This document shows positions 3,080-19,622 of a DNA stretch of 21,511 nt, piece after piece. The position numbers were made by a program, and so were the translations under genes. The notes beneath the pieces were generated by a model, which made no database searches, had not been told where the DNA came from, and worked only from the letters and a program-made list of their open reading frames with translations. This stretch comes from a virus, in IMG/VR virus record IMGVR_UViG_3300010403_000062, positions 1 through 21,511 of that record; one strand, 5' to 3'. The first letter of the stretch is position 1. The number at the start of each line of letters is the position of its first letter.

Positions 3080-3208
3080 TTATTCTCCTGACTTGTGCGC
3101 GGGAACCGGAGGAAGCATATAGGCCATCCCATCTTCCACCTTCCACGTCTTCCACCCATGGTTGACTAATTCAAGCCATGCAGATGAGTTGTATTCGATT
3201 TTAAGCAT
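3080..3208 (-). CDS. Small hypothetical protein, 42 aa
   Basis: ATG at 3208 follows GGGAGG with a four-base spacer; TAA at 3080 is three bases before the next ATG (3076), whose Shine-Dalgarno overlaps this gene's end. The sequence (MLKIEYNSSAWLELVNHGWK, then WKVEDGMAYMLPPVPA) is of the kind seen in short phage ORFs, with aromatic residues spaced as in a small beta sheet. It is the first gene of the minus-strand run that ends at 2216 and starts immediately left of structured RNA 2. Confidence 0.65.
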   Translation of the reverse strand: MLKIEYNSSAWLELVNHGWKTWKVEDGMAYMLPPVPAHKSGE

Positions 3209-3234
3209 TGGACCTCCCCATCATCAGTCGTGGA

Positions 3235-3240
3235 TATAAT
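3235..3240 (+). promoter_or_regulatory. Consensus -10 box TATAAT before RNA 2
   Basis: A perfect TATAAT on the plus strand ends six bases before the first helix of structured RNA 2 (3246). The only -35-like hexamer (TTGGAC, 3208-3213) is 21 bases away, too far for a standard sigma70 site, so an activator or a phage-specific factor would be needed. The box lies just upstream of, and opposite to, the minus-strand gene starting at 3208. Confidence 0.4.
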
Positions 3241-3245
3241 GCCGT

Positions 3246-3655
3246 GTGGGATATCGGGTGCCCACTCCCGCCGATGCTTGTATGCCGCACCAGGAGCATA
3301 TCAGTTTATGGACATGATTGGTCGCATCATAAAAATGATGCCATAGCGCGTTATGCGTTATCAACGCATACAGCTTGCAATTATCCACTACTTTTTGGTG
3401 GAGTGGCGCGCTATTTCGGGGTACAAAACAATCATGTGTGGCGGGATTCCCACTCCGCTCCCAGACAAAAACACAGGCCGACTTTATTTCCACTAGCTTA
3501 AAGCCCTAGTTTAGCTCTCACTCCGGTTTAGCTTCGGAACGGCCTTATCTTACCCACCACCAGCTACGGTGGTCACACATGAATTAAGCCACGGGGTTGA
3601 TGACGCACTTACCCCTTGTGCGACAGGCTTATACCGCTGATCCTGTACGCGGCCG
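3246..3655 (+). ncRNA. Putative structured RNA 2 (about 0.4 kb) with nested helices and a pseudoknot
   Basis: Perfectly complementary segments nest inside one another: GTGGGA 3246-3251 with 3448-3453; TCCCGCC 3266-3272 with 3440-3446; ACATGATTG 3312-3320 with 3429-3437; ATAGCGCG 3343-3350 with 3407-3414. The last helix closes a three-way junction holding TATGCGTT/AACGCATA (3352-3359/3363-3370, loop ATC) and TCCAC/GTGGA (3384-3388/3398-3402). A side hairpin GCATCAT-AAAA-ATGATGC occupies 3324-3341. The right part has ACCACC/GGTGGT (3556-3561/3568-3573) and TAAGCC/GGCTTA (3585-3590/3626-3631). The latter encloses an H-type pseudoknot in which GGGG (3593-3596) pairs with CCCC (3612-3615) inside the CGCAC/GTGCG hairpin loop (3604-3608/3618-3622). 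Possible G-U extensions (3273-3439, 3351-3406) favour the plus strand. Protein frames here lack ribosome binding sites. Confidence 0.65.
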
Positions 3656-3660
3656 GAATG

Positions 3661-3930
3661 TCAAACCTTGGCGAACGCGATCTTCGTCTCGACCACCAGC
3701 CCCGTGGCCTTGACCTGATCCGGGGTGGGAGCGAACCCGAGCAGCTTGATCTGGGTCGCCTTGTCCTGACTGACCAGCAGCGAACCAACAGCCGTGATGG
3801 GGTCACCCAATTCCGCCAGCGTGAACCCCATGTTCTTCAGAACATTCATGGCCTGATCCTTCTTGACCCCCGACTTCACCAGAATGCTTTCCGCGAACCG
3901 GGCCTGTTTATTCGACATGAGCATGGACAT
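3661..3930 (-). CDS. Small hypothetical protein, 89 aa
   Basis: ATG at 3930 follows AAGGAG at a rather long ten-base spacing; the ATG at 3919 (residues MSNKQ) is an alternative start. The product is Ala/Val/Leu-rich with a Lys-rich amphipathic pattern (SNKQARFAESILVKSGVKKD, later GSLLVSQDKATQIKLLGFAP) and no cysteines, consistent with a small folded helical or alpha/beta protein. No family is recognised. It lies alone between structured RNAs 2 and 3 on the opposite strand; a plus-strand transcript running past 3655 would be antisense to it. Confidence 0.7.
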   Translation of the reverse strand: MSMLMSNKQARFAESILVKSGVKKDQAMNVLKNMGFTLAELGDPITAVGSLLVSQDKATQIKLLGFAPTPDQVKATGLVVETKIAFAKV

Positions 3931-4029
3931 GGTTATACTTCTCCTTGACATTAGTTGCCCATGACTTCGGGCTATAAGTCCTACCCCACCCAATTATCCC
4001 TGCGCTTTTCACAGTGTGATTGTAAAGAA

Positions 4030-4058
4030 TTAACAGGTATTGGAATGAGGTATATATA
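4030..4058 (+). promoter_or_regulatory. Sigma70-like promoter of RNA 3
   Basis: TTAACA (4030-4035), a 17-base spacer and TATATA (4053-4058) form a good sigma70-type promoter on the plus strand. The expected start is at about 4065, the first base of helix ACGGTCC of the large structured RNA. A TCACA-G-TGTGA palindrome lies just upstream (4008-4018) and could be an operator. Confidence 0.55.
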
Positions 4059-4064
4059 AAGCCG

Positions 4065-5196
4065 ACGGTCCCCGCGTCCAAGTTTTGGATCATGGATATT
4101 GGACCGTGTTTCATGCGCGGGAATGAGCGGGAAAATGCCATGCGTCCCCGGTCCCTATTCTACCGAGAAGGTCAGGCCGTAGCATCGTAGCGGCCTATTC
4201 TGACGCGTGTATGGTTAACCTTGCCACCATCAGGGAATCTAGCTATGGTTCGAGCTAGCGCGCAGCCTTCTTTTATATTTACTGTCCGCGCATTTTCTCA
4301 CCTCGGGCTAGTGTTTCATACTCATGCGTGGGCCCATAGGGTTGCCATCCCGCTATTAGCGATACGTTTTTCAATAGGCGTCGTAAGCCTATGCATATTT
4401 TATAATGCCAGCACGCATATCACCCAGTCATTTTTATAGTTGCAATAGATTAGACGATCTAGGCAACCTTGTACCCAGGGTATTAGCCTGATAGACAACA
4501 GGTGATAGCGTGCAAAATCTAAACACCATGCAACAGGACGCAAGTTAGATTGCATGGTTACTCACGGGATATATACTCATGTCAGGTAACAGCATTGGAT
4601 ATGCCATACCCCAACATATACACCATCGCGCATACGGTACTTCTAGGTCTATTGTCGTATGGGGCTAGGTTGTCGTCGTTTCCCGCTATCAAGGTACGCT
4701 ATGGTGATTACTGTGTCCCGGCTTCGTCCGACTAATTGGACCTCACCCGCCATTTCACGGTTTACGCGGGCGAACAGCCATACTTCGGCCATCCGACTAG
4801 GGGCGACTAATCGCTATTGCCTATCCCGCTACGCTACTACGGTTTATCCATAGTGCCAGCACCTTGATATCGCAGCTTGCCATATACACGCTATCCAATG
4901 TTCCCGCAGCGATTCTATGCACCTTGCATAGCGCCCTATCCGGCCCGTTTCGGCCTTAGCGGTCGGTCTATATACCGTGTATACCTTTGGGGTAATCCGT
5001 GTGAAACTATTGCAACCCCTTGTGTCTAGCTCGTATCCCGCGTTGTATCAGTCCTACCGCGCTATCGGCTGGCCGTTCCGCCTCGCCCGCGCTGGCAGTC
5101 TACCATACTGCAATCACCGTGCCAACCTTGAAATGCGCGCCAGCAACGGCGCGACGGGGTTAGCCGGTGTCAGATTGTCACCACCTGACACTTTTT
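4065..5196 (+). ncRNA. Putative giant structured non-coding RNA (about 1.13 kb), RNA 3
   Basis: No frame of this 1.1 kb has a ribosome binding site or protein-like sequence, yet perfect inverted repeats run through it. Hairpins: 4065-4071/4101-4107 (ACGGTCC), 4077-4089 (triloop), 4174-4179/4191-4196, 4239-4258 (CTAGCT/AGCTAG), 4374-4392 (ATAGGC/GCCTAT, seven-base loop), 4526-4533/4550-4557 (eight pairs), 4631-4636/4656-4661, 4803-4814, 4915-4931 (CTATGCA-CCT-TGCATAG). Long-range helices enclose domains: GCACGC and ATCAC (4411-4423) with GTGAT and GCGTGC (4502-4513); TATCAAGGT and CTATGG (4687-4704) with CCATAG and ACCTTGATA (4848-4869); TATACACG (4883-4890) with CGTGTATA (4976-4983). A promoter-like sequence precedes the first helix and an intrinsic terminator ends the stretch. 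The architecture recalls the ornate phage RNAs ROOL and GOLLD, which also sit near phage tRNA genes; membership cannot be judged by eye. Confidence 0.7.
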
Positions 5197-5338
5197 GATC
5201 TGACACTTGACACTGCTTCATTTTGCAACGTTCGCCATACAGTCGTGCATCTGCAATCAGCCTGGCCTCAAGCACCTTGAGTCTGACTGCCTTCTGTGCG
5301 GCCGTCATGTTGTCCATGTCGCCATTGTATGCAGGCAT
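5114..5338 (-). CDS. Doubtful small protein, 74 aa
   Basis: The frame is open further upstream, but protein-like sequence begins at ATG 5338 (MPAYNGDMDNMTAAQKAVRL) and continues with an Ala/Leu/Arg-rich helix to about residue 45; the C-terminal third looks random. No Shine-Dalgarno is visible before this or the internal ATGs. Its last 80 bases run through the terminator of RNA 3 on the other strand, where codons read the TGACAC repeats. It may be a real minor gene or an accident of the antisense strand. Confidence 0.3.
   Translation of the reverse strand: MPAYNGDMDNMTAAQKAVRLKVLEARLIADARLYGERCKMKQCQVSDQKVSGGDNLTPANPVAPLLARISRLAR
5167..5196 (+). terminator. Intrinsic terminator of RNA 3
   Basis: GTGTCAG (5167-5173) and CTGACAC (5185-5191) form a seven-pair stem with an 11-base loop, directly followed by five T residues on the plus strand. 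This fits rho-independent termination of rightward transcription. The half-site TGACAC recurs just downstream (in TCTGACACTT and TTGACACTGC), so the cluster may also bind a protein. Confidence 0.7.
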
Positions 5339-5935
5339 CGTGCCAACACAAAAGCATGACAGGCACGCACGGAATATGTTGCACAATGCAACGATTGTCC
5401 GAAAAACAAACACGGCGGGGAAAAGCCCACAAAGACAATGCTTTTCGTGTGTTCAGATGTAGGACATACCGTAAGGAACCTGGACACAGACAGAATGATG
5501 CAGAATGAAACATGGTGGTTACTTATGGTAACTAGCATAATGCAAGCCTGTAAGCATTTATGGTGTAGTGTTGAGCATCATTCTTCCAATCCCATTGTCA
5601 TTACAGCATTTATGCACACCATCATCCTGGCTTCATGCTGCATCGCACGCAATATTGATGGAATCATGATATATCAACCATGGATAGCTATATGTCATGA
5701 CATAGCTATGGCCATGCTATTGCATAGAGCGTGCCATGATGGGAGGCTCACCCAACTTGAGCATGATAAAGGGGGGAAAGGATCATCTCCCTTCAAATTG
5801 CCATTTTGAAGCATACCCTGTCATGTTTTTAGCACATGGGGACCCATTCTGGCTAGAAGGGGACCCACAAAAAGGCTGGAATATTCCCTGAATTAAATAT
5901 GCCGATATTCATTGAATTTAATCTTTGATTGCCTA
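5200..5935. other. Palindrome-rich intergenic stretch without a convincing gene
   Basis: Beyond the doubtful minus-strand frame ending near 5338, this stretch shows no supported gene. A 123-codon plus-strand frame (5438-5809) has no ribosome binding site and an odd composition rich in Cys, His and Met. It contains perfect short inverted repeats: GTTGCA-CAA-TGCAAC (5378-5392), GTTAC-TTATG-GTAAC near 5515, and overlapping palindromes between about 5660 and 5715, including TGTCATGACA (5693-5702) flanked by ATAGCTA and TAGCTAT. The right end (5880-5930) is AT-rich and holds ATTAAAT/ATTTAAT. It could be a replication origin, a regulatory region or another structured RNA. Confidence 0.4.
5838..5867 (+). 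repeat. Two GGGGACCCA sites 21 bp apart (possible operator pair)
   Basis: GGGGACCCA occurs at 5838-5846 and again at 5859-5867. The 21-base spacing places both on the same helix face. The first copy extends to the palindrome ATGGGGACCCAT. They lie about 70-100 bases upstream of the strong promoter at 5936, a position suited to an activator or repressor; the binding protein is unknown. Confidence 0.35.
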
Positions 5936-5964
5936 TTGACATTTGACTCCGGATATGCTAGACT
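5936..5964 (+). promoter_or_regulatory. Strong sigma70-type promoter
   Basis: A perfect TTGACA (5936-5941), a spacer of exactly 17 bases ending in TGC (extended -10), and TAGACT (5959-5964) make this the best promoter in the window. The predicted start is about 5971, the first base of the tRNA-like structured RNA, and the transcript would continue rightward through the tRNAs and small genes. Confidence 0.8.
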
Positions 5965-5970
5965 CCTATC

Positions 5971-6111
5971 GTGCAGTGATTCGGCAGTGCCAACTATCGG
6001 TAATGTTGGGTCCTAGTCTAGCCACTAACTGCTAGCGTGGATTGATGGGCGGGGATGGAATCCGTAAGTCCCACCTATGTAGGTTCGACCCCTACCTGCC
6101 CTTTCCTGCAC
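5971..6111 (+). ncRNA. tRNA-like structured RNA of about 140 nt
   Basis: GTGCAG (5971-5976) pairs with CTGCAC (6106-6111) and GGCAG (5983-5987) with CTGCC (6096-6100), closing a multibranched structure. Inside are CCAAC/GTTGG with a D-loop-like TATCGGTAAT, CTAGC/GCTAG (6018-6022/6031-6035) with an eight-base loop, GGATT/AATCC (6039-6043/6059-6063) extendable by two G-U pairs valid only on this strand, and a perfect T-arm GTAGG-TTCGACC-CCTAC (6079-6095). The order D-like, anticodon-like, variable and T-arm imitates a tRNA, but the 8-base loop, weak acceptor and about 123-nt core rule out an ordinary one. Because the promoter start coincides with its first base it is probably expressed. It could be a degenerate tRNA, a mimic or a regulatory leader. 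Confidence 0.5.
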
Positions 6112-6122
6112 GGGTTTCATAC

Positions 6123-6242
6123 ATGGCGCGGTCGGGGGATAAACAGGAGGGGAACTGCACGGTGAATTACCTAAACCTGCCTACTGATCCTACGCCACAG
6201 TTTCTTGGCGTCTCCCGCGCCTATTTCCGGGAAAAGGATTGA
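6123..6242 (+). CDS. Tentative small ORF, 39 aa
   Basis: The frame from ATG 6123 (MARSGDKQEGN) ends with TGA one base before the ATG of the next gene. An AGGAGG lies inside it, 11 bases before an in-frame GTG (VNYLNLPTDPTPQFLGVSRA), so a 26-residue product from the GTG is equally possible. The end looks protein-like, but no family is recognised. It may serve as a leader coupled to the following gene. Confidence 0.35.
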   Translation: MARSGDKQEGNCTVNYLNLPTDPTPQFLGVSRAYFREKD

Positions 6243-6243
6243 C

Positions 6244-6414
6244 ATGATTGACGTAAGCCGATGGACCCGCAAGCAATGTGAACGTGCCATTCAAGCAGCA
6301 CGAACGCTGGCGGCAGAGGATCGAGCCTATGGCCGGACCCGCTCCGTGGATGAGCAGGATCGGATTGATGCTCACATTGAAGCAGTTCGTGAACGCCTGT
6401 CAGCATTAAAGTGA
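6244..6414 (+). CDS. Small helical protein, 56 aa
   Basis: ATG at 6244 has AAGGA five bases upstream, within the end of the preceding small frame. The product (MIDVSRWTRKQCERAIQAAR, then AHIEAVRERLSALK) is strongly charged and helical, with a heptad-like pattern, and probably forms one or two alpha helices; there is no membrane segment. A longer frame exists upstream to 6205, but the start at 6244 has the ribosome binding site. It is the first clearly protein-like gene after the strong promoter at 5936. Function unknown. Confidence 0.65.
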   Translation: MIDVSRWTRKQCERAIQAARTLAAEDRAYGRTRSVDEQDRIDAHIEAVRERLSALK

Positions 6415-6543
6415 AGAAACGGCCTTTTTCTCACATAGAGGCCCTAAACAGGCATTCTTGCCTGCGGATGGTATGCCAGCATGTTTTAGGCGGCATGATG
6501 GCCTCCTTGGGCTTCCCTGTGAGTTCTAGGGGTATCCTGCGGT

Positions 6544-6699
6544 CGTGACGATACGCAACTTCGGCTCGGTTGCAAGTGTGGCATGGGATGAGCAGGGACT
6601 CTACTGGCTGGCCTTTCCCGGCTTTCGGTTTAGGGCGACCCGCGGAATCAATGGTGTCTGGCGTGGGTATACCAGAATATTCGGTGTATTTATTCGATG
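6544..6699 (+). CDS. Doubtful small protein with GTG start, 51 aa
   Basis: A GTG-initiated frame (VTIRNFGSVASVAWDEQGLY, then WLAFPGFRFRATRGINGVWR) ends with TGA two bases before the first tRNA. It is rich in aromatic residues and Arg; the only ribosome binding site is AGGGG at an unfavourable 12-base spacing. The opposite strand has an equally protein-like, HNH-resembling reading. The 130 bases from 6415 to 6543 hold a CAGGCA-TTCT-TGCCTG hairpin (6449-6464) and no supported gene. Confidence 0.3.
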
Positions 6700-6701
6700 A
6701 A

Positions 6702-6772
6702 GCCGGATTCGTCCAGCGGTAGGATGTCCGGTCTGTACCCGGAAGACGGGAGTTCAAATCTCTCATTCGGCT
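6702..6772 (+). tRNA. tRNA, anticodon UGU (Thr) by cloverleaf geometry
   Basis: A complete cloverleaf can be drawn: acceptor GCCGGAT/ATTCGGC, D-arm GTCC-AGCGGTA-GGAT, anticodon stem TCCGG/CCGGA with loop TCTGTAC, four-base variable loop, and T-arm GGGAG-TTCAAAT-CTCTC, discriminator T. The anticodon at 6734-6736 is TGT with A37. Position 33, almost always T, is C here, and the discriminator is T rather than the usual A. The CCA end is not encoded in full. Confidence 0.85.
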
Positions 6773-6781
6773 GGCATGATT

Positions 6782-6865
6782 GTAGTCGTGGCGTGAATGG
6801 CAGACGCGGCAGACTGTAAATCTGCTGTCCAAATGGGCATGGTGGTTCAAGTCCATCCGGCTACA
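6782..6865 (+). tRNA. tRNA-Tyr (GUA)
   Basis: A class II tRNA: acceptor GTAGTCG/CGGCTAC with one T-G pair, D-arm GCG/CGC, anticodon arm GCAGA-CTGTAAA-TCTGC giving anticodon GTA, a long variable arm with TCC/GGG stem as expected for bacterial tRNA-Tyr, T-arm GGTGG-TTCAAGT-CCATC and discriminator A. It follows the first tRNA by nine bases, and CCA is not encoded. Confidence 0.92.
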
Positions 6866-6878
6866 CGGAATTATAAAA

Positions 6879-6922
6879 GCGGGGAGCAGCGGTCGTCAGG
6901 GCAACTCTACGGCCTACCCCGC
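6879..6922 (+). other. Structured element between tRNA-Tyr and the next gene
   Basis: GCGGGG (6879-6884) pairs with CCCCGC (6917-6922), enclosing GGTCGT (6891-6896) paired with ACGGCC (6909-6914), with one U-G pair valid on this strand. Words such as GGAGCAGCGGT and CGTCAGG resemble pieces of bacterial initiator tRNA, so it might be a deleted tRNA. There is no U-tract. It ends about 20 bases before the ribosome binding site of the 6955 gene and may be its leader. Confidence 0.45.
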
Positions 6923-8411: not shown

Positions 8412-9080
8412 TTGAAGCGCCCACGGGTTCGGGGCCGGAGTGCGGCCATCAAACTCACGCAGGAGGAATCGCTGGCATGGGTGTATCAGGATGTCTACCA
8501 GATCGCCCCACGGCTGACCAAACACGTCCTGGGAATCCTGTGCGACATGGAGAAACAGCAGGAAAAGCCGAAGGACGAGCATCACGCGAAACTCCTGATG
8601 CAGCAATCGCGGGAGCGGGCAGCGGCGAATCAAATGGTGATGGAGATTTCGGACTTGATTTTGCCAGTCGTTTTCAAGCTTCCCGTGAAAGAGCGGGCCA
8701 ACTGGCGGGATTACAGTCTGGACGAGAAGAAGAAGATGGTGGCCGCGAGGCTTTTGAAATTGGGTCTTGCTACCGAGAAGAAAGACAGCGATGATGAATC
8801 TCCCAAGCACGAAGGAGATACAGAAGCTCCTGTCGAGCAAGCACCCGCAAGCGGTGGACGAACTGATGGAACTCCTGGAGGGGATCGCGGAGGACGAGCG
8901 GCACTCGGCGTGGGAGCGGTACGAGCCGATGCCGAGCCAGTTGAAGTTCCACAAAAGCCTAGCGAGGGTGAGGCTGTACTGTGGCGGGAACCGGGCGGGG
9001 AAGACTACGGCGGGAATGATCGAAGCCATCTGGTACATGATGGGCCGCCACCCCTACAGGACAGTTTTATCACCGAATAG
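8412..9080 (+). CDS. terS: Probable terminase small subunit
   Basis: Located directly upstream of terL and of suitable size, with a basic N-terminus (KRPRVRGRSAAIKL) followed by helical, charged segments (ESLAWVYQDVYQIAPRLTKH, later EKKKMVAARLLKLGL); terminase small subunits recognise phage DNA and regulate the large subunit. Assignment rests mainly on position. TTG 8412 is the first usual start codon, but the frame is open back to 8253 with a Ser/Thr/Pro-rich, protein-like sequence (STDSTSTEPASDTSSSTEVI) and an AAGGA site at 8251-8255, so the real start may be a rare codon such as ATT 8268. The frame runs to 9080, 290 bases into terL; that tail is Gly/Pro/Glu-rich with a different codon bias. 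Confidence 0.6.
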   Translation: MKRPRVRGRSAAIKLTQEESLAWVYQDVYQIAPRLTKHVLGILCDMEKQQEKPKDEHHAKLLMQQSRERAAANQMVMEISDLILPVVFKLPVKERANWRDYSLDEKKKMVAARLLKLGLATEKKDSDDESPKHEGDTEAPVEQAPASGGRTDGTPGGDRGGRAALGVGAVRADAEPVEVPQKPSEGEAVLWREPGGEDYGGNDRSHLVHDGPPPLQDSFITE

Positions 9081-10206
9081 CGGCTGGATTGTCGCCCTCG
9101 ACAACGAGGTGTTGGCTGACGTTATTCTTCCTAAGCTGTTTGAGTATCTTCCTGAAGACCTGATTAAAAGTTTCAACAAAGTCAAGGGTGTTCTTGAACT
9201 CAAGAATGGCAGCCTGTGTAAATTCAAGTCCTGTGATTCGGGAGCCGAGAAATTCCAGTCGGCGGAACGCCGCTGGATATGGTTTGATGAGGAACCGCCA
9301 CAGGAAGTCTGGAATGAATGTCTAATCCGAGTGGGGGCACGCTACCCGCTCGATGTCTGGATGACCATGACACCCCTCAAGGGCATGGATTGGAGCTATG
9401 ATGAAATCGAACAGAAGCAAAAGCCCGGAGAGATTGAAGTATTTGGTGCCAGCTTTGTTGACAATTACCATATTCTGCCTTCTGAGCGTCAGCGCATCAT
9501 TGAAAAGTATGAACACACAGATGAAGCAAATGCGCGGCTCCATGGGCACTATTTCCACAAAAGTGGACTCATTTACAAGGGTCTTAGACCGGAGCTACAT
9601 CTGGTGGACCCCTTCCCCATACCTGAGCATTGGCCCTTCATTCGGATCATCGACCCCCATCCAAGAAAACCGAGTGCCGCCATATGGGTTGCCGTGTCTC
9701 CCGGGAACCATCTATACGTTACCGACGAACTTAACGATCCAGAGGAAATCCTTCTCAGTGAATTTGCCCAACGAGTTAAGGAAATCGACGGGAAGCGTTA
9801 CATTGTACGGTCCCTTATTGATCCAGCAGCTCGACAGGGAACAGCCCAAACCGGAATGTCAACCCAGGAGTATCTCTCTCAACCCGAGATAGGGCTGCAT
9901 TGCGAGTTTGCCAATAACAATGTCACGTTTGGATATGATGCAGTTCGGAAACGGCTTCAGGGGCCGGACGGGCCGACCATCCATATCTTCAATAACTGCT
10001 GGAAGACATGGAAGCAGCTGACCCATTTAGTGTATGAAGAATGGCGTCATCGGGGGGCCAACAGGGACGTTCGGGAGGTTCAAAGAAAAGTCAATGATGA
10101 TTTAGCCGACTGCGTCCGATATGCTTGCTCAGAGCAATTTGAGTATTCCGATCCACGGATGCCTCCTCCTGATTATGTTCCAAGAAGTAGCACTACTGGA
10201 TATTAA
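8791..10206 (+). CDS. terL: Terminase large subunit (packaging ATPase-nuclease)
   Basis: The 471-residue protein has Walker A GGNRAGKTT at 65-73, Walker B as IWFDEEPP at 163-170, a coupling motif MTMTPLKG at 191-198, and an RNase H-like nuclease domain with acidic residues expected near D288 (IRIIDPH), D344 (SLIDPAARQG) and D437/D440 (DDLADCVRY). It drives DNA translocation into the procapsid through the portal and cuts concatemers. Start is ATG 8791 or 8794, with a weak AGAAG site; a frame to 8767 exists. By hand count, third codon positions are about 85% G/C up to roughly 9060 and about half afterwards, a break inside one gene. The TAA stop directly abuts the following endonuclease gene. 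Confidence 0.95.
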   Translation: MMNLPSTKEIQKLLSSKHPQAVDELMELLEGIAEDERHSAWERYEPMPSQLKFHKSLARVRLYCGGNRAGKTTAGMIEAIWYMMGRHPYRTVLSPNSGWIVALDNEVLADVILPKLFEYLPEDLIKSFNKVKGVLELKNGSLCKFKSCDSGAEKFQSAERRWIWFDEEPPQEVWNECLIRVGARYPLDVWMTMTPLKGMDWSYDEIEQKQKPGEIEVFGASFVDNYHILPSERQRIIEKYEHTDEANARLHGHYFHKSGLIYKGLRPELHLVDPFPIPEHWPFIRIIDPHPRKPSAAIWVAVSPGNHLYVTDELNDPEEILLSEFAQRVKEIDGKRYIVRSLIDPAARQGTAQTGMSTQEYLSQPEIGLHCEFANNNVTFGYDAVRKRLQGPDGPTIHIFNNCWKTWKQLTHLVYEEWRHRGANRDVREVQRKVNDDLADCVRYACSEQFEYSDPRMPPPDYVPRSSTTGY

Positions 10207-10701
10207 ATGATGACAGACCGCGAACGGAAACTAAAGGCTGCGTCGGATAGGGCTTACTATCTAAGAAATAGAGATAGGATTAAGGCGTCAGTAAAGGCGT
10301 ATAAGGAAAATAACAAGGAGAAGGTCGCTGAGGCGGTTCGCAGGTGGCAGGCGGACCATAAGGAACAAAGGTATAGATATAATGCTGAGTATCAAAGAAT
10401 GAATCCGGAAAAAAGATTCAATCATCTCTTGATGTATCATTACGGTCTTCGACGCGAAGAGTACGATGAAATGCTTAAGCGTCAGTCCGGATTGTGTGCT
10501 ATTTGCTTCGGCGGCCCCGGTCCAGGTCGCAACAGGTTAGTCGTAGATCACAGGCATGGCACTGATCGCGCCACCCGCAGGGAGCGCGTCAGGGAGTTGC
10601 TGTGCCATAGGTGTAACGCCGCAATCGGCCTTGCGCTAGAGAACCAATCCACACTCGGAAGGATGATAGAGTATCTTGCGAAGCATTCCCCGAAGCAATG
10701 A
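10207..10701 (+). CDS. Endonuclease VII-like HNH endonuclease (free-standing)
   Basis: The 164-residue protein has the recombination endonuclease VII zinc/HNH core: C97/C100 (CAIC), DHRH at 114-117 and CHRCNAAIG at 133-141, with N137 at the usual catalytic position. Residues 1-70 form a basic helical arm that probably contacts DNA. T4 endonuclease VII resolves branched DNA, but small relatives placed between phage structural genes usually behave as homing endonucleases. It starts on the base after the terL stop with only a weak ribosome binding site, which suggests insertion of a mobile gene. A second family member lies at 19242. Confidence 0.9.
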   Translation: MMTDRERKLKAASDRAYYLRNRDRIKASVKAYKENNKEKVAEAVRRWQADHKEQRYRYNAEYQRMNPEKRFNHLLMYHYGLRREEYDEMLKRQSGLCAICFGGPGPGRNRLVVDHRHGTDRATRRERVRELLCHRCNAAIGLALENQSTLGRMIEYLAKHSPKQ

Positions 10702-10914: not shown

Positions 10915-12690
10915 ATGGAACCACTTATTCAATCTCCCTCCGCTTCGGTCCCTCCGATTGATTCATTCAATATCAATTCCGGAGCAGGCAATCCCATTGA
11001 AGCCAAGATTCTTGAATTAGTTCGTTCCGACATTACATCAACCGCCAAAGAGCGGTCTGAAACCAAGCGTAAGGTGGCTCTGCGGCGGGCCATCTACAAT
11101 TCCCAGCAGCCCAATCCCACCTATCGCGGTCGATCCAATGTCCGCGTGCCCTTCCCGTATGTCACTGTTCAATCCATGGTGCCTCGCTACATGAATTATA
11201 CGTTCTCCGGCACTGATGTTCTCAAGTCCTACCCTCGCGGCCATTCCGCCGACTGGGGAAAGGCCCGCAATGCCCAGTATCTCATCAATTTCCAGCTAAT
11301 GTTTGAAGCGGATTTCTTTATGAACGCCATGAACTTCTATATCGCGCTTTCCCGCGACGGATTGGCGATACAGAAGATCAAGTGGGACGCGGAAATTGGC
11401 TCTCCGGTTATCTATCAAATTCAGGGAGAGGATTTCTGTATGGACAAGTCCATGTCGTTCATCAACCGACAGACGAAATGGGCTGGACATCTTGTTGGCA
11501 AGACACGCCAGGATTTGATTGACGGCCTATCGGACCCCAGTAAGGGATATAATCCTGAAACCGTCAATGAGATTCTCAAGGGTGAGCCAGATACGACCCT
11601 TCCCGACGGAACCAGCGTGCCGAAGAGTCGCGGCATCTACAAGATTTGGGAATGGTGGGGCATCTGCGACCTTGGCAACGGGCCGGAGCGGTGCATTATC
11701 AATCTGGTGGATGGCAAGGACAAGATTCTTTCCTATGTGAAGTCTCCCTACGGAAACATTCTTCCGTTCGTCGCCCTGAATGATGTTGACGATCCCTTTC
11801 ACTTCTCCGACGGCAAAAGCGAACTTGATGTCATGGAGCCGCTGTATGAGATGGCGAATTCCGTGTGGAATCAGCGACTCGATAACGTCACGCAAGGCAT
11901 TAATGGTCACTTTATCGTTAAAAAGGGGTCCGGGTTAGACCTGAATCGCCTGACCAGTACACCTTGGGGCGTAACGCTCGTTAATCAGCCCGGGGACATC
12001 ACGAAACTTGAGACGCCGAACGTCACACAGAATGCCTATGTAGAAGTGCGAGAGATTATTGAGGCCATGAAGGATTCCAGTGGCCTGACGGACATGATGC
12101 GCGGCGCTGTCCAGTCCGGCGCGGGTACGGCCACGGAATCCACACAGATTGCTCAGGGGGCCGCCATGCGTCCCGGTCTCAAGCAGATGAAGGTGGCCCA
12201 TCAGTACGTCAAGCGCGTTGGTGAACTCTTCCTTGCCATGGATCAGATGTTCATGTCCACCGAAAAAGCCATCGCCGTGACCGGGGACCGTAACGCTCCC
12301 GCCTCTATTGCTCCGAATGACATCATCGGCCAGTACGAGATGATGCCCTCCAACTTCCGGCTGGTGACGGACATCAATGGCCGCATTGCTCAGTTGAGCA
12401 GCATGCTCAATATGGCCGGAAACAACCTCGGGAAAGAAATTGTCGCCATCAAAATCTGGAAAGAGATGTGCGGCCTTGCCAATATCGACATCAGCGAAGA
12501 GGAATGGACGATGGCGCTGCAATTGGCAACAGGGCAGCAGGCCAAACAGATGGAAATGCAGACTTATGATGGAGCCTTGGGCGGACCTGCCAATAAACCC
12601 ACTGGACCCATTGGGGTTCCGCGTGTCGCCAACACGCCGTCCGGGCCGCCGCAGGGAGCCTCACGGCCAGCCAATCAGGAGGTTAAGTAA
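10915..12690 (+). CDS. Portal protein
   Basis: 591 residues, placed between terL and the scaffold and capsid genes, the standard portal position. Early segments VPFPYVTVQSMVPRYMNYTF and KSYPRGHSADWGKARNAQY and the central NILPFVALNDVDDPFHFSDG followed by LYEMANSVWNQRLDNV match what is usual for podovirus-like portals, whose twelve subunits form the DNA channel and dock terminase. The C-terminus (from about residue 560) is a Pro/Gly/Gln-rich tail. AAGGA lies close before the ATG and the gene abuts its upstream neighbour; the final A of its TAA is the first base of the next ATG. Identification is by pattern and context rather than a catalytic motif. Confidence 0.88.
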   Translation: MEPLIQSPSASVPPIDSFNINSGAGNPIEAKILELVRSDITSTAKERSETKRKVALRRAIYNSQQPNPTYRGRSNVRVPFPYVTVQSMVPRYMNYTFSGTDVLKSYPRGHSADWGKARNAQYLINFQLMFEADFFMNAMNFYIALSRDGLAIQKIKWDAEIGSPVIYQIQGEDFCMDKSMSFINRQTKWAGHLVGKTRQDLIDGLSDPSKGYNPETVNEILKGEPDTTLPDGTSVPKSRGIYKIWEWWGICDLGNGPERCIINLVDGKDKILSYVKSPYGNILPFVALNDVDDPFHFSDGKSELDVMEPLYEMANSVWNQRLDNVTQGINGHFIVKKGSGLDLNRLTSTPWGVTLVNQPGDITKLETPNVTQNAYVEVREIIEAMKDSSGLTDMMRGAVQSGAGTATESTQIAQGAAMRPGLKQMKVAHQYVKRVGELFLAMDQMFMSTEKAIAVTGDRNAPASIAPNDIIGQYEMMPSNFRLVTDINGRIAQLSSMLNMAGNNLGKEIVAIKIWKEMCGLANIDISEEEWTMALQLATGQQAKQMEMQTYDGALGGPANKPTGPIGVPRVANTPSGPPQGASRPANQEVK

Positions 12691-13779: not shown

Positions 13780-14769
13780 GTGGCTATTACCATTACGACA
13801 ACCAACCAGTACAGCGATACGCTCCGGACCTTCTACGAGATGAAATTTTTGTCCGGACTGACGACTAATCTGGTGTTCTACAACTTTGCGACGGAATATC
13901 CGATTGCGAAGGGCTTTGGTCCCGTGGTGCAGTTTACCCGGTACACGCCGAGCGTTTCGACGCCTGCGGACCGCCTGCTCTCGGAAGGTACGCCTCCGTC
14001 CAGCATTCAGCTTTCAATTGAGAAGGTGAATGCGACTGCTCTTCAGTATGGCAACTTCGTTGACATCTCTGATTGGCTGTATGCCAACTATATGTCCGGC
14101 TATTCGGAGCAGGTCGAGCAGACGCTCGAAGTCCTGTCTCTGGAAGCGCAGGATGTCATTGACCAGATCGTGCGGAACGGCCTTGGGGCCTCTTCGGGCG
14201 CGAATTCCACGTTCGCCGGGAGCGCGACTTCGGTGGCGACACTGAATCCGACCAGCGACCTTATCTCTGCGGATCAGGTCCGCAAGGTCGTGCGGACGCT
14301 GAAGCGTCGGTTTGTTCCGTTCTTCGATGGCAGCAACTACATCGGGATCATCTCGCCGGGTCAGTCCTTTGACCTTCAGGGCGAGACCGGCGTGGGTAGC
14401 TGGATCGACGTGAACAAGTATACCGGCACCACGAAGGCTGAGAAGGGCGAAATCGGCAAGCTGTATTCGGTGCGATTCGTTGAATCTCAGAACCTCACGG
14501 TTGCGGGTGGCGTCGGCGTTGGTGCCTCGGGCACGGTGCAGAGCTACTTCTTCGGGAAGGATGCCCTTGGCGTGGTGAACGTCAAGGATGTGACGAGCGG
14601 GAACCGCAAGTCCATGAAGCACATTGAGTTGTTCATCAAGGAGCCGGGTTCTGCGGGAACGGCCGATCCTCTGAACCAGCATGGCACGATTGGTTACAAG
14701 TTTAACATCGCGGCTGTGCGACTTCACAATGCGCGTGTCCAGTTGTTCGAGTCGGGCGAAGGCGCGTAA
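13780..14769 (+). CDS. Major capsid protein, N4-gp56 family
   Basis: 329 residues starting at GTG 13780 with GGGAG eight bases upstream. The N-terminal arm (TTTNQYSDTLRTFYEMKFLS), the conserved PVVQFTRYTPSV with the following LLSEGTPPS, and the central long helix around EQTLEVLSLEAQDVIDQIVR fit the N4-gp56 branch of HK97-fold capsid proteins. The C-terminal half carries FVPFFDGSNYIGIISPG and a late GTIGYKFNIAAVRLHNAR segment typical of the family. It forms the icosahedral shell. Codon use is strongly G/C-ending and regular, as expected for a highly expressed gene. Confidence 0.92.
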   Translation: MAITITTTNQYSDTLRTFYEMKFLSGLTTNLVFYNFATEYPIAKGFGPVVQFTRYTPSVSTPADRLLSEGTPPSSIQLSIEKVNATALQYGNFVDISDWLYANYMSGYSEQVEQTLEVLSLEAQDVIDQIVRNGLGASSGANSTFAGSATSVATLNPTSDLISADQVRKVVRTLKRRFVPFFDGSNYIGIISPGQSFDLQGETGVGSWIDVNKYTGTTKAEKGEIGKLYSVRFVESQNLTVAGGVGVGASGTVQSYFFGKDALGVVNVKDVTSGNRKSMKHIELFIKEPGSAGTADPLNQHGTIGYKFNIAAVRLHNARVQLFESGEGA

Positions 14770-18987: not shown

Positions 18988-19245
18988 ATGACGCTCAAGG
19001 CTCTCGTTCGACATGAGAATGGCGATCTGAATAAGATTGCTATTGCACTCATCACGGCAGCCATGATTGGTATTGGTTCATTCTGGACCGTTGGATCGGT
19101 GAAAGCCTATACCACTGAAACAAAAGTTACAGACATGAATGATAATATCAAGAGAATTTTGGATATTCTTGAGCATCGCCAGAATAGGGATGCCAAGAAA
19201 GAGCATGATAGCCGTAACGCTAATACACCAAAGGTGGTTGGATGA
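18988..19245 (+). CDS. Rz-like (i-spanin) or membrane-anchored coiled-coil protein, 85 aa
   Basis: Begins one base after the holin-like gene. A basic N-terminus is followed by one transmembrane segment at residues 17-38 (IAIALITAAMIGIGSFWTVG) and a coiled-coil-like region (DMNDNIKRILDILEHRQNRD). This is the layout of inner-membrane spanin subunits, which link the inner and outer membranes at lysis, although the periplasmic part is short. No Rz1 partner is evident in another frame. Its stop overlaps the HNH gene start (ATGA). Confidence 0.55.
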   Translation: MTLKALVRHENGDLNKIAIALITAAMIGIGSFWTVGSVKAYTTETKVTDMNDNIKRILDILEHRQNRDAKKEHDSRNANTPKVVG

Positions 19246-19622
19246 TGGCTACCGGAAGTTACGAGAACACTAAAAGGTGGATGGAGAAGTATCCGGAGAG
19301 GTCCAAGGAATCCAAGAAAAGGTGGCTCCTGAAAAATAAAGAAAAAATGAAAAGCTATATTAGGGATTGGAAACTGAAGAAGAGATATGGAATATCAAAC
19401 GAGCAGTTCCTTTCTATTCTCGCGGAGCAAGACGGCAGGTGCCGTATATGTAACAGAAATAAATACGAACTTGGCTCCACTCATCTGGTGGTGGACCACA
19501 ACCATCTCACGGGAAAGGTTCGAGGTATTCTCTGCTCTAAGTGTAACGTTGCCATTGGATTGCTAGGAGATGATTCTCCGACAGCATATCGGGCATCCAA
19601 ATATCTGGAGTTAACAAATTGA
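19242..19622 (+). CDS. Endonuclease VII-like HNH endonuclease (second copy of the family)
   Basis: 126 residues with C67/C70 (CRIC), DHNH at 85-88 and CSKCNVAIG at 98-106, the endonuclease VII core with the conserved Asn. The basic helical N-terminus (YENTKRWMEKYPERSKESKK) parallels that of the 10207 gene, but sequence similarity is limited to the core. It starts within the stop of the Rz-like gene and its own TGA overlaps the next TTG start, so it appears embedded in the lysis/tail segment, most probably as a mobile homing-type gene. Confidence 0.9.
   Translation: MMATGSYENTKRWMEKYPERSKESKKRWLLKNKEKMKSYIRDWKLKKRYGISNEQFLSILAEQDGRCRICNRNKYELGSTHLVVDHNHLTGKVRGILCSKCNVAIGLLGDDSPTAYRASKYLELTN

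Follow-up and report, generated by a model that had tools for sequence, protein, structure and literature searches.

In an uncultured tailed phage (IMG/VR record IMGVR_UViG_3300010403_000062), a stretch of approximately 1.05 kb at the junction of the leftward and rightward gene arms is non-coding, carries an excess of inverted repeats, and contains a 150-nt unit that folds strongly, and this stretch is accompanied by three leftward -24/-12 promoter matches and a cluster of TGTCA/TGACA boxes. From these features we infer that the stretch would be transcribed, probably leftward, and that its RNA would fold and function in the cell. The stretch may represent an orphan structured non-coding leader or non-coding RNA, and this is the reading we favor, at somewhat below even confidence. 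The whole record of 21,511 bases was analyzed and is referred to here as the window; its layout around the stretch is as follows.

Positions 1060-1566, 2216-2575 and 3661-3930, minus strand: genes of the leftward arm.
Positions 3661-3930, minus strand: an 89-aa gene, the first leftward gene past the non-coding stretch; function not assigned by match.
Positions 4045-5100: the non-coding stretch, a candidate structured RNA or leader on the basis of codon signal, inverted repeats, and MFE z.
Positions 5114-5413, minus strand: a possible small gene, a 99-aa ORF (approximately 70 aa from an inner start) that overlaps the claimed 3' end of the RNA.
Positions 6701-6866: two tRNA genes, starting 1.5 kb past the end of the non-coding stretch.
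Positions 8767-10206, 10915-12690 and 13780-14769, rightward arm: terminase, portal, and major capsid protein.

The best relatives of the TerL protein among IMG/VR, GenBank phages, and GTDB genomes were at most 38% identical, and the phage is thus isolated in the collections searched. The left 6.7 kb of the window looks unusually gene-poor, and further sizeable non-coding stretches lie at 1800-2215, 3090-3610, and 5420-6200. A tRNA-like element that is absent from the ARAGORN calls was observed at 5966-6115 on the plus strand (z -2.6); its T-arm is perfect (GTAGG-TTCGACC-CCTAC), a hairpin resembling a D-arm contains GGTAA, approximately 68 nt lie between the two arms, a stem (CGTGCAG/CTGCACG) closes the element, and a TTGACA-17-TAGACT element lies ahead of it at 5936. 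In the distant relatives L010 (2612-2684) and L011 (94-168), whose TerL proteins are 33-34% identical, a tRNA-Thr(UGU) is encoded just upstream of the terminase, and this phage likewise has a tRNA-Thr(UGU) upstream of its terminase (6701-6773). ORF-poor stretches are also found directly upstream of the terminase in relatives (L008, 9020-9820; L010, 2100-2610), where they contain many repeated AGCT/GTAGC words and have no sequence similarity to the stretch in this phage. Recombination endonuclease VII (Pfam Endonuclease_7) is encoded twice on the plus strand, at 10207-10701, directly 3' of the terminase gene, and at 19242-19622, by separate genes that both match one and the same region of the phage locus L074.

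The first-pass annotation had described 1.1 kb without a supported gene, and the coding analyses agree with that description: codon log-odds were negative in all six frames from approximately 4045 to 5113, and the ORF fragments of the stretch gave no Pfam or PHROG match, a result on which the idea of a decayed gene was also rejected. Read-through of any single stop codon did not recover a plausible gene in 4045-5113. Stop-codon recoding was rejected as well, as the longest frame with TAG read through comprised 202 codons (4590-5198, plus strand) and its codon usage was unsupportive. The flanking gene at 3661-3930 displayed a strong minus-strand codon signal and a GGAG-type ribosome site ahead of its ATG, with no Pfam or PHROG family match, and the minus-strand ORF at 5114-5413 displayed a weak codon signal and likewise no Pfam or PHROG match.

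The same annotation had reported many perfect inverted repeats, and these are indeed present in excess. Between 4045 and 5100, 17 perfect inverted repeats of at least 8 bp were counted, compared to 7.5 +- 2.8 in dinucleotide-shuffled sequence, and 7 of at least 9 bp, compared to 2.0 +- 1.4; none of the 400 shuffles reached either observed count. This excess was the strongest among 21 windows tiled along the contig, and it is only moderately significant once the 21 tiled windows are corrected for. The three sets of paired arms named in the annotation were all located, but one of them, 4687-4704 with 4848-4869, is not a single continuous perfect block; it consists of 9 bp and 6 bp flanking a 3x7 internal loop. 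The pair 4883-4890/4976-4983 is a perfect 8-bp helix, and 4411-4423/4502-4513 comprises two 6-bp runs with a single bulged A. Four long-range helices, two of them from this set, are mutually nested and compatible, and they occur together in the plus-strand MFE fold.

Positions 4439-5016: long-range nested helices, namely 4439-4448/5007-5016 (10 bp), 4607-4614/4987-4994 (8 bp), 4687-4704/4848-4869, and 4883-4890/4976-4983.
Positions 4411-4513: core structured domain, in which two hairpins sit on a long basal stem (GCACGC-A-TATCACC / GGTGATA-GCGTGC).
Positions 4525-4558: a separate second hairpin with a perfect 9-bp stem, ACCATGCAA / TTGCATGGT.

The strongest folding was confined to a short part of the stretch. 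Positions 4411-4558 were the best-folding of 1,068 windows of 150 nt across the whole contig, with z of -6.6 on the plus strand and -4.2 on the minus strand (200 shuffles), and 4405-4520 on the plus strand gave z of -5.3. At a scale of 150-200 nt, nearly all of the stretch except 4411-4560 was similar to shuffled sequence, and the full-length MFE z (4040-5200) was -2.6 on the plus strand and -1.7 on the minus strand, while adjacent non-coding stretches scored as well (-2.3 to -3.0). The proposal of a giant structured RNA is therefore upheld for a 150-nt unit that folds well, but not for strong folding across 1.1 kb. These full-length values, no better than those of the neighboring non-coding DNA, together with an inverted-repeat excess that is moderate after correction for 21 windows and the lack of detected conservation, are what would be expected if the stretch were intergenic DNA that for the most part has no function or is under weak constraint, and in which chance helices were noticed because helices were sought. 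We consider this unlikely, because the z of approximately -6.6 at 4411-4558 and the absence of any shuffle among 400 that matched the repeat counts are hard to obtain by chance; it also counts against this explanation that phage genomes rarely retain 1 kb of useless DNA.

Two genuine ROOL RNAs, both recognized by the ROOL model, were used as a yardstick for these statistics. The ROOL controls gave z of -3.3 and -3.0 in the sense orientation and -2.3 and -2.7 in the antisense orientation, with little inverted-repeat excess. The 580-nt segment 4411-4990 gave z of -3.2 on the plus strand and -1.0 on the minus strand, and its inverted-repeat excess was above that of the controls. As the plus-strand value lies within the range of the ROOL controls, single-sequence statistics neither rule out nor establish a giant RNA here, and such statistics hardly discriminate between true giant RNAs and the usual non-coding DNA of phages.

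The boundaries of the claimed RNA rested on a plus-strand promoter and a terminator at its 3' end, which correspond to the following elements.

Positions 4030-4058, plus strand: a weak sigma-70-like TTAACA-17-TATATA element (TTAACA at 4030-4035, TATATA at 4053-4058).
Positions 5167-5213: five TGTCA/TGACA boxes; 5 of the window's 46 boxes lie here, inside 45 bp.

The proposed plus-strand promoter exists as described, but it is weak, matching 5/6 and 4/6 consensus positions (9/12 in total), and it was missing from the listing of the consensus scan. Similarly, the stem of the proposed terminator (GTGTCAG at 5167-5173, an 11-nt loop, and CTGACAC at 5185-5191) and the TTTTT that follows it (to 5196) could be located; however, the stem belongs to the cluster of five TGTCA/TGACA boxes and is not supported as a terminator. 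Its position within this cluster and within the possible minus-strand ORF at 5114-5413 makes it doubtful where the claimed RNA would end on its 3' side. Altogether, the boundary signals are weak, or better read as parts of a sigma-54-type regulatory region of the opposite direction, for which three candidate promoter sites were identified.

Positions 5109-5125, minus strand: sigma-54-type (-24/-12) promoter, TTGGCACGGTGATTGCA, an exact consensus match with a predicted start at approximately 5098.
Positions 5330-5346, minus strand: second sigma-54-like site, TTGGCACGATGCCTGCA, the second-best match in the window.
Positions 5721-5737, minus strand: third sigma-54-like site, ATGGCACGCTCTATGCA, the third-best match in the window.

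The three best -24/-12 matches in the 21.5-kb window are thus all leftward, in tandem, and inside 5109-5737. The site at 5109-5125 has the GG (-24) and GC (-12) elements at 10-bp spacing and matches the TGGCACG-N4-TTGC consensus exactly. The -24/-12 consensus is established for sigma-54; with the consensus weights used here the top two sites scored 17.6-18.4, the best match per window in 20 shuffled windows was at most 16.9, and 1.42 Mb of other loci contained only 2 sites scoring at least 17.6. In a lax blastn search, 5109-5140 matched (30 of 32 nt) an intergenic site in many Nankokuvirus phages of Pseudomonas, including KPP10 and CHA_P1. A scan of IMG/VR for the promoter element matched only one contig. 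Furthermore, approximately 70-115 bp separate the predicted leftward start from the box cluster at 5167-5213 on its upstream side, a distance that is usual for sigma-54 activator sites.

The direction of transcription was also considered from base composition and folding. Plus-strand purine content was 0.45 in 4045-5100, 0.41-0.45 in the leftward genes, and 0.48-0.51 past 5100; a content that is low as in the leftward genes and shifts at approximately 5100 favors a leftward reading. Fold z was better on the plus strand for both 4411-4990 and 4411-4560, and this favors the plus strand. Juxtapositions of G-U versus A-C in the helices pick no strand, and the ROOL controls were separated poorly by this measure too. 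No terminator for a leftward RNA was found. With the promoter sites, the box cluster, and the purine skew for it and the folding z against it, transcription of the stretch is probably leftward.

The alternative closest to the original proposal is a rightward, stand-alone giant RNA of the GOLLD/ROOL kind outside Rfam, which would form a multi-domain, RNA-only assembly in lytic growth. The better plus-strand fold z, the nested long-range helices, and the tRNA genes 1.5 kb away are consistent with such an RNA, as are precedents of approximately 0.8-1 kb outside known families in ICP1 (PMC7567579) and phage K (PMC9241854). Nevertheless, it appears fairly unlikely, given a weak plus-strand promoter, a terminator that is re-read as part of the box cluster, a purine skew and a best promoter that point leftward, and a stretch of 1.1 kb that is mostly similar to shuffled sequence at 150-200 nt and for which homologues were not found. 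At about the same level of doubt, the stretch could be a DNA-level control region between the divergent arms, with the hairpins of 4411-4558 acting as a cruciform or single-strand origin. The hairpins are strong on both strands (z of -6.6 and -4.2), as DNA palindromes would be, a promoter match and a box cluster are present, the stretch lies between divergent arms, and smaller ORF-poor stretches are found ahead of the terminase in related phages; however, ROOL, a known structured RNA, also has negative z on both strands, and notable iterons or tandem-repeat arrays are absent from the stretch.

Under the favored reading of a structured leader or non-coding RNA, RNA polymerase would start at approximately 5098 from the predicted sigma-54-type promoter at 5109-5125 (minus strand), and the TGTCA/TGACA boxes of 5167-5213 would be the site of action of a host enhancer-binding protein. 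Transcription would then extend through 4045 and give either a non-coding RNA in its own right or, for the leftward genes that begin at 3930, a long 5' leader. The folded unit at 4411-4558 and the nested long-range helices may then form a structured RNA that would act at the RNA level, either in control of the leader or, as has been proposed for large RNAs of other phages, in scaffolding or sequestration.

The stretch was compared to known RNA families and to other phage sequences. A covariance search of Rfam (4227 models, both strands, including OLE and HEARO) found no family matching the stretch, and at lax thresholds, with the window and its sub-stretches as queries, the only significant matches were the two tRNAs. 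The suggested membership in ROOL or GOLLD did not survive these searches: the ROOL covariance model gave no match even at E<=10, while the same model detects the two real ROOLs, and GOLLD gave no match at the gathering score, at E<=10 for 3400-6900, or at E<=10 in a family-specific search. Low-stringency blastn against 50,697 phage records and the PLSDB plasmids revealed no homologue of the stretch; the sole notable phage match was the 32-nt piece over the -24/-12 motif and its flank, and the plasmid matches lay mostly at tRNAs. Distant relatives were collected from IMG/VR with TerL, the major capsid protein, the portal, and a pair of leftward proteins as queries, and from GTDB with TerL, and a similar stretch was present in none of those searched. 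A single-sequence covariance model of 4405-4562 matched only itself among 50 whole phage records and 3 genomes, and two exact-pattern scans of IMG/VR (17- and 18-mers from the core unit) gave chance matches, none of which was confirmed by the model. The collection of homologues proposed in the first-pass annotation hence yielded none from phage records, plasmids, neighboring proteins, the core model, or IMG/VR patterns, in collections from which records very close to the window's own may be missing. It is improbable on present evidence that the stretch belongs to a family of large structured phage RNAs not yet described (approximately 0.6-1.1 kb, neither GOLLD nor ROOL), in which nested long-range helices accompany the compact branched core at 4411-4558 and expression depends on regulation by host sigma-54 and an enhancer-binding protein.

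If a discrete RNA is made from this stretch, it would be one more unrelated lineage among the few such RNAs known, and sigma-54-type control, if true, would link the RNA to a definite host regulatory state and thereby make its function testable. If not, the case illustrates that inverted-repeat counts and loose promoter and terminator matches can yield a convincing but misdirected "giant RNA".

Similar to ROOL (RF03087), which is phage-borne, non-coding, hundreds of nt in length, and located near tRNA genes, the stretch displays a comparable overall fold z; dissimilar from ROOL, whose sense strand is purine-rich in the controls, the plus strand claimed here is pyrimidine-rich. GOLLD RNAs are phage-borne, exceed 800 nt, and lie near tRNA genes (PMC12286853). 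The stretch, approximately 1.05 kb long and with two tRNAs starting 1.5 kb past its end, may resemble GOLLD (RF02032) in length and setting, depending on where a candidate RNA would begin and end, but it does not match the GOLLD model at E<=10. In ICP1, an RNA of approximately 800 nt outside known families was found by RNA-seq to be the most abundant transcript (PMC7567579), and RNA-seq of phage K revealed two lncRNAs outside known families (PMC9241854). These are, like the present stretch, ORF-less phage spaces of approximately 1 kb without family membership, but their transcripts were seen by RNA-seq, whereas the stretch described here is known from its sequence. Lastly, the predicted RpoN promoter agrees with known RpoN promoters in its exact TTGGCACG-N4-TTGCA element, and the cluster of repeated inverted boxes, as putative activator sites, lies at the usual distance upstream.
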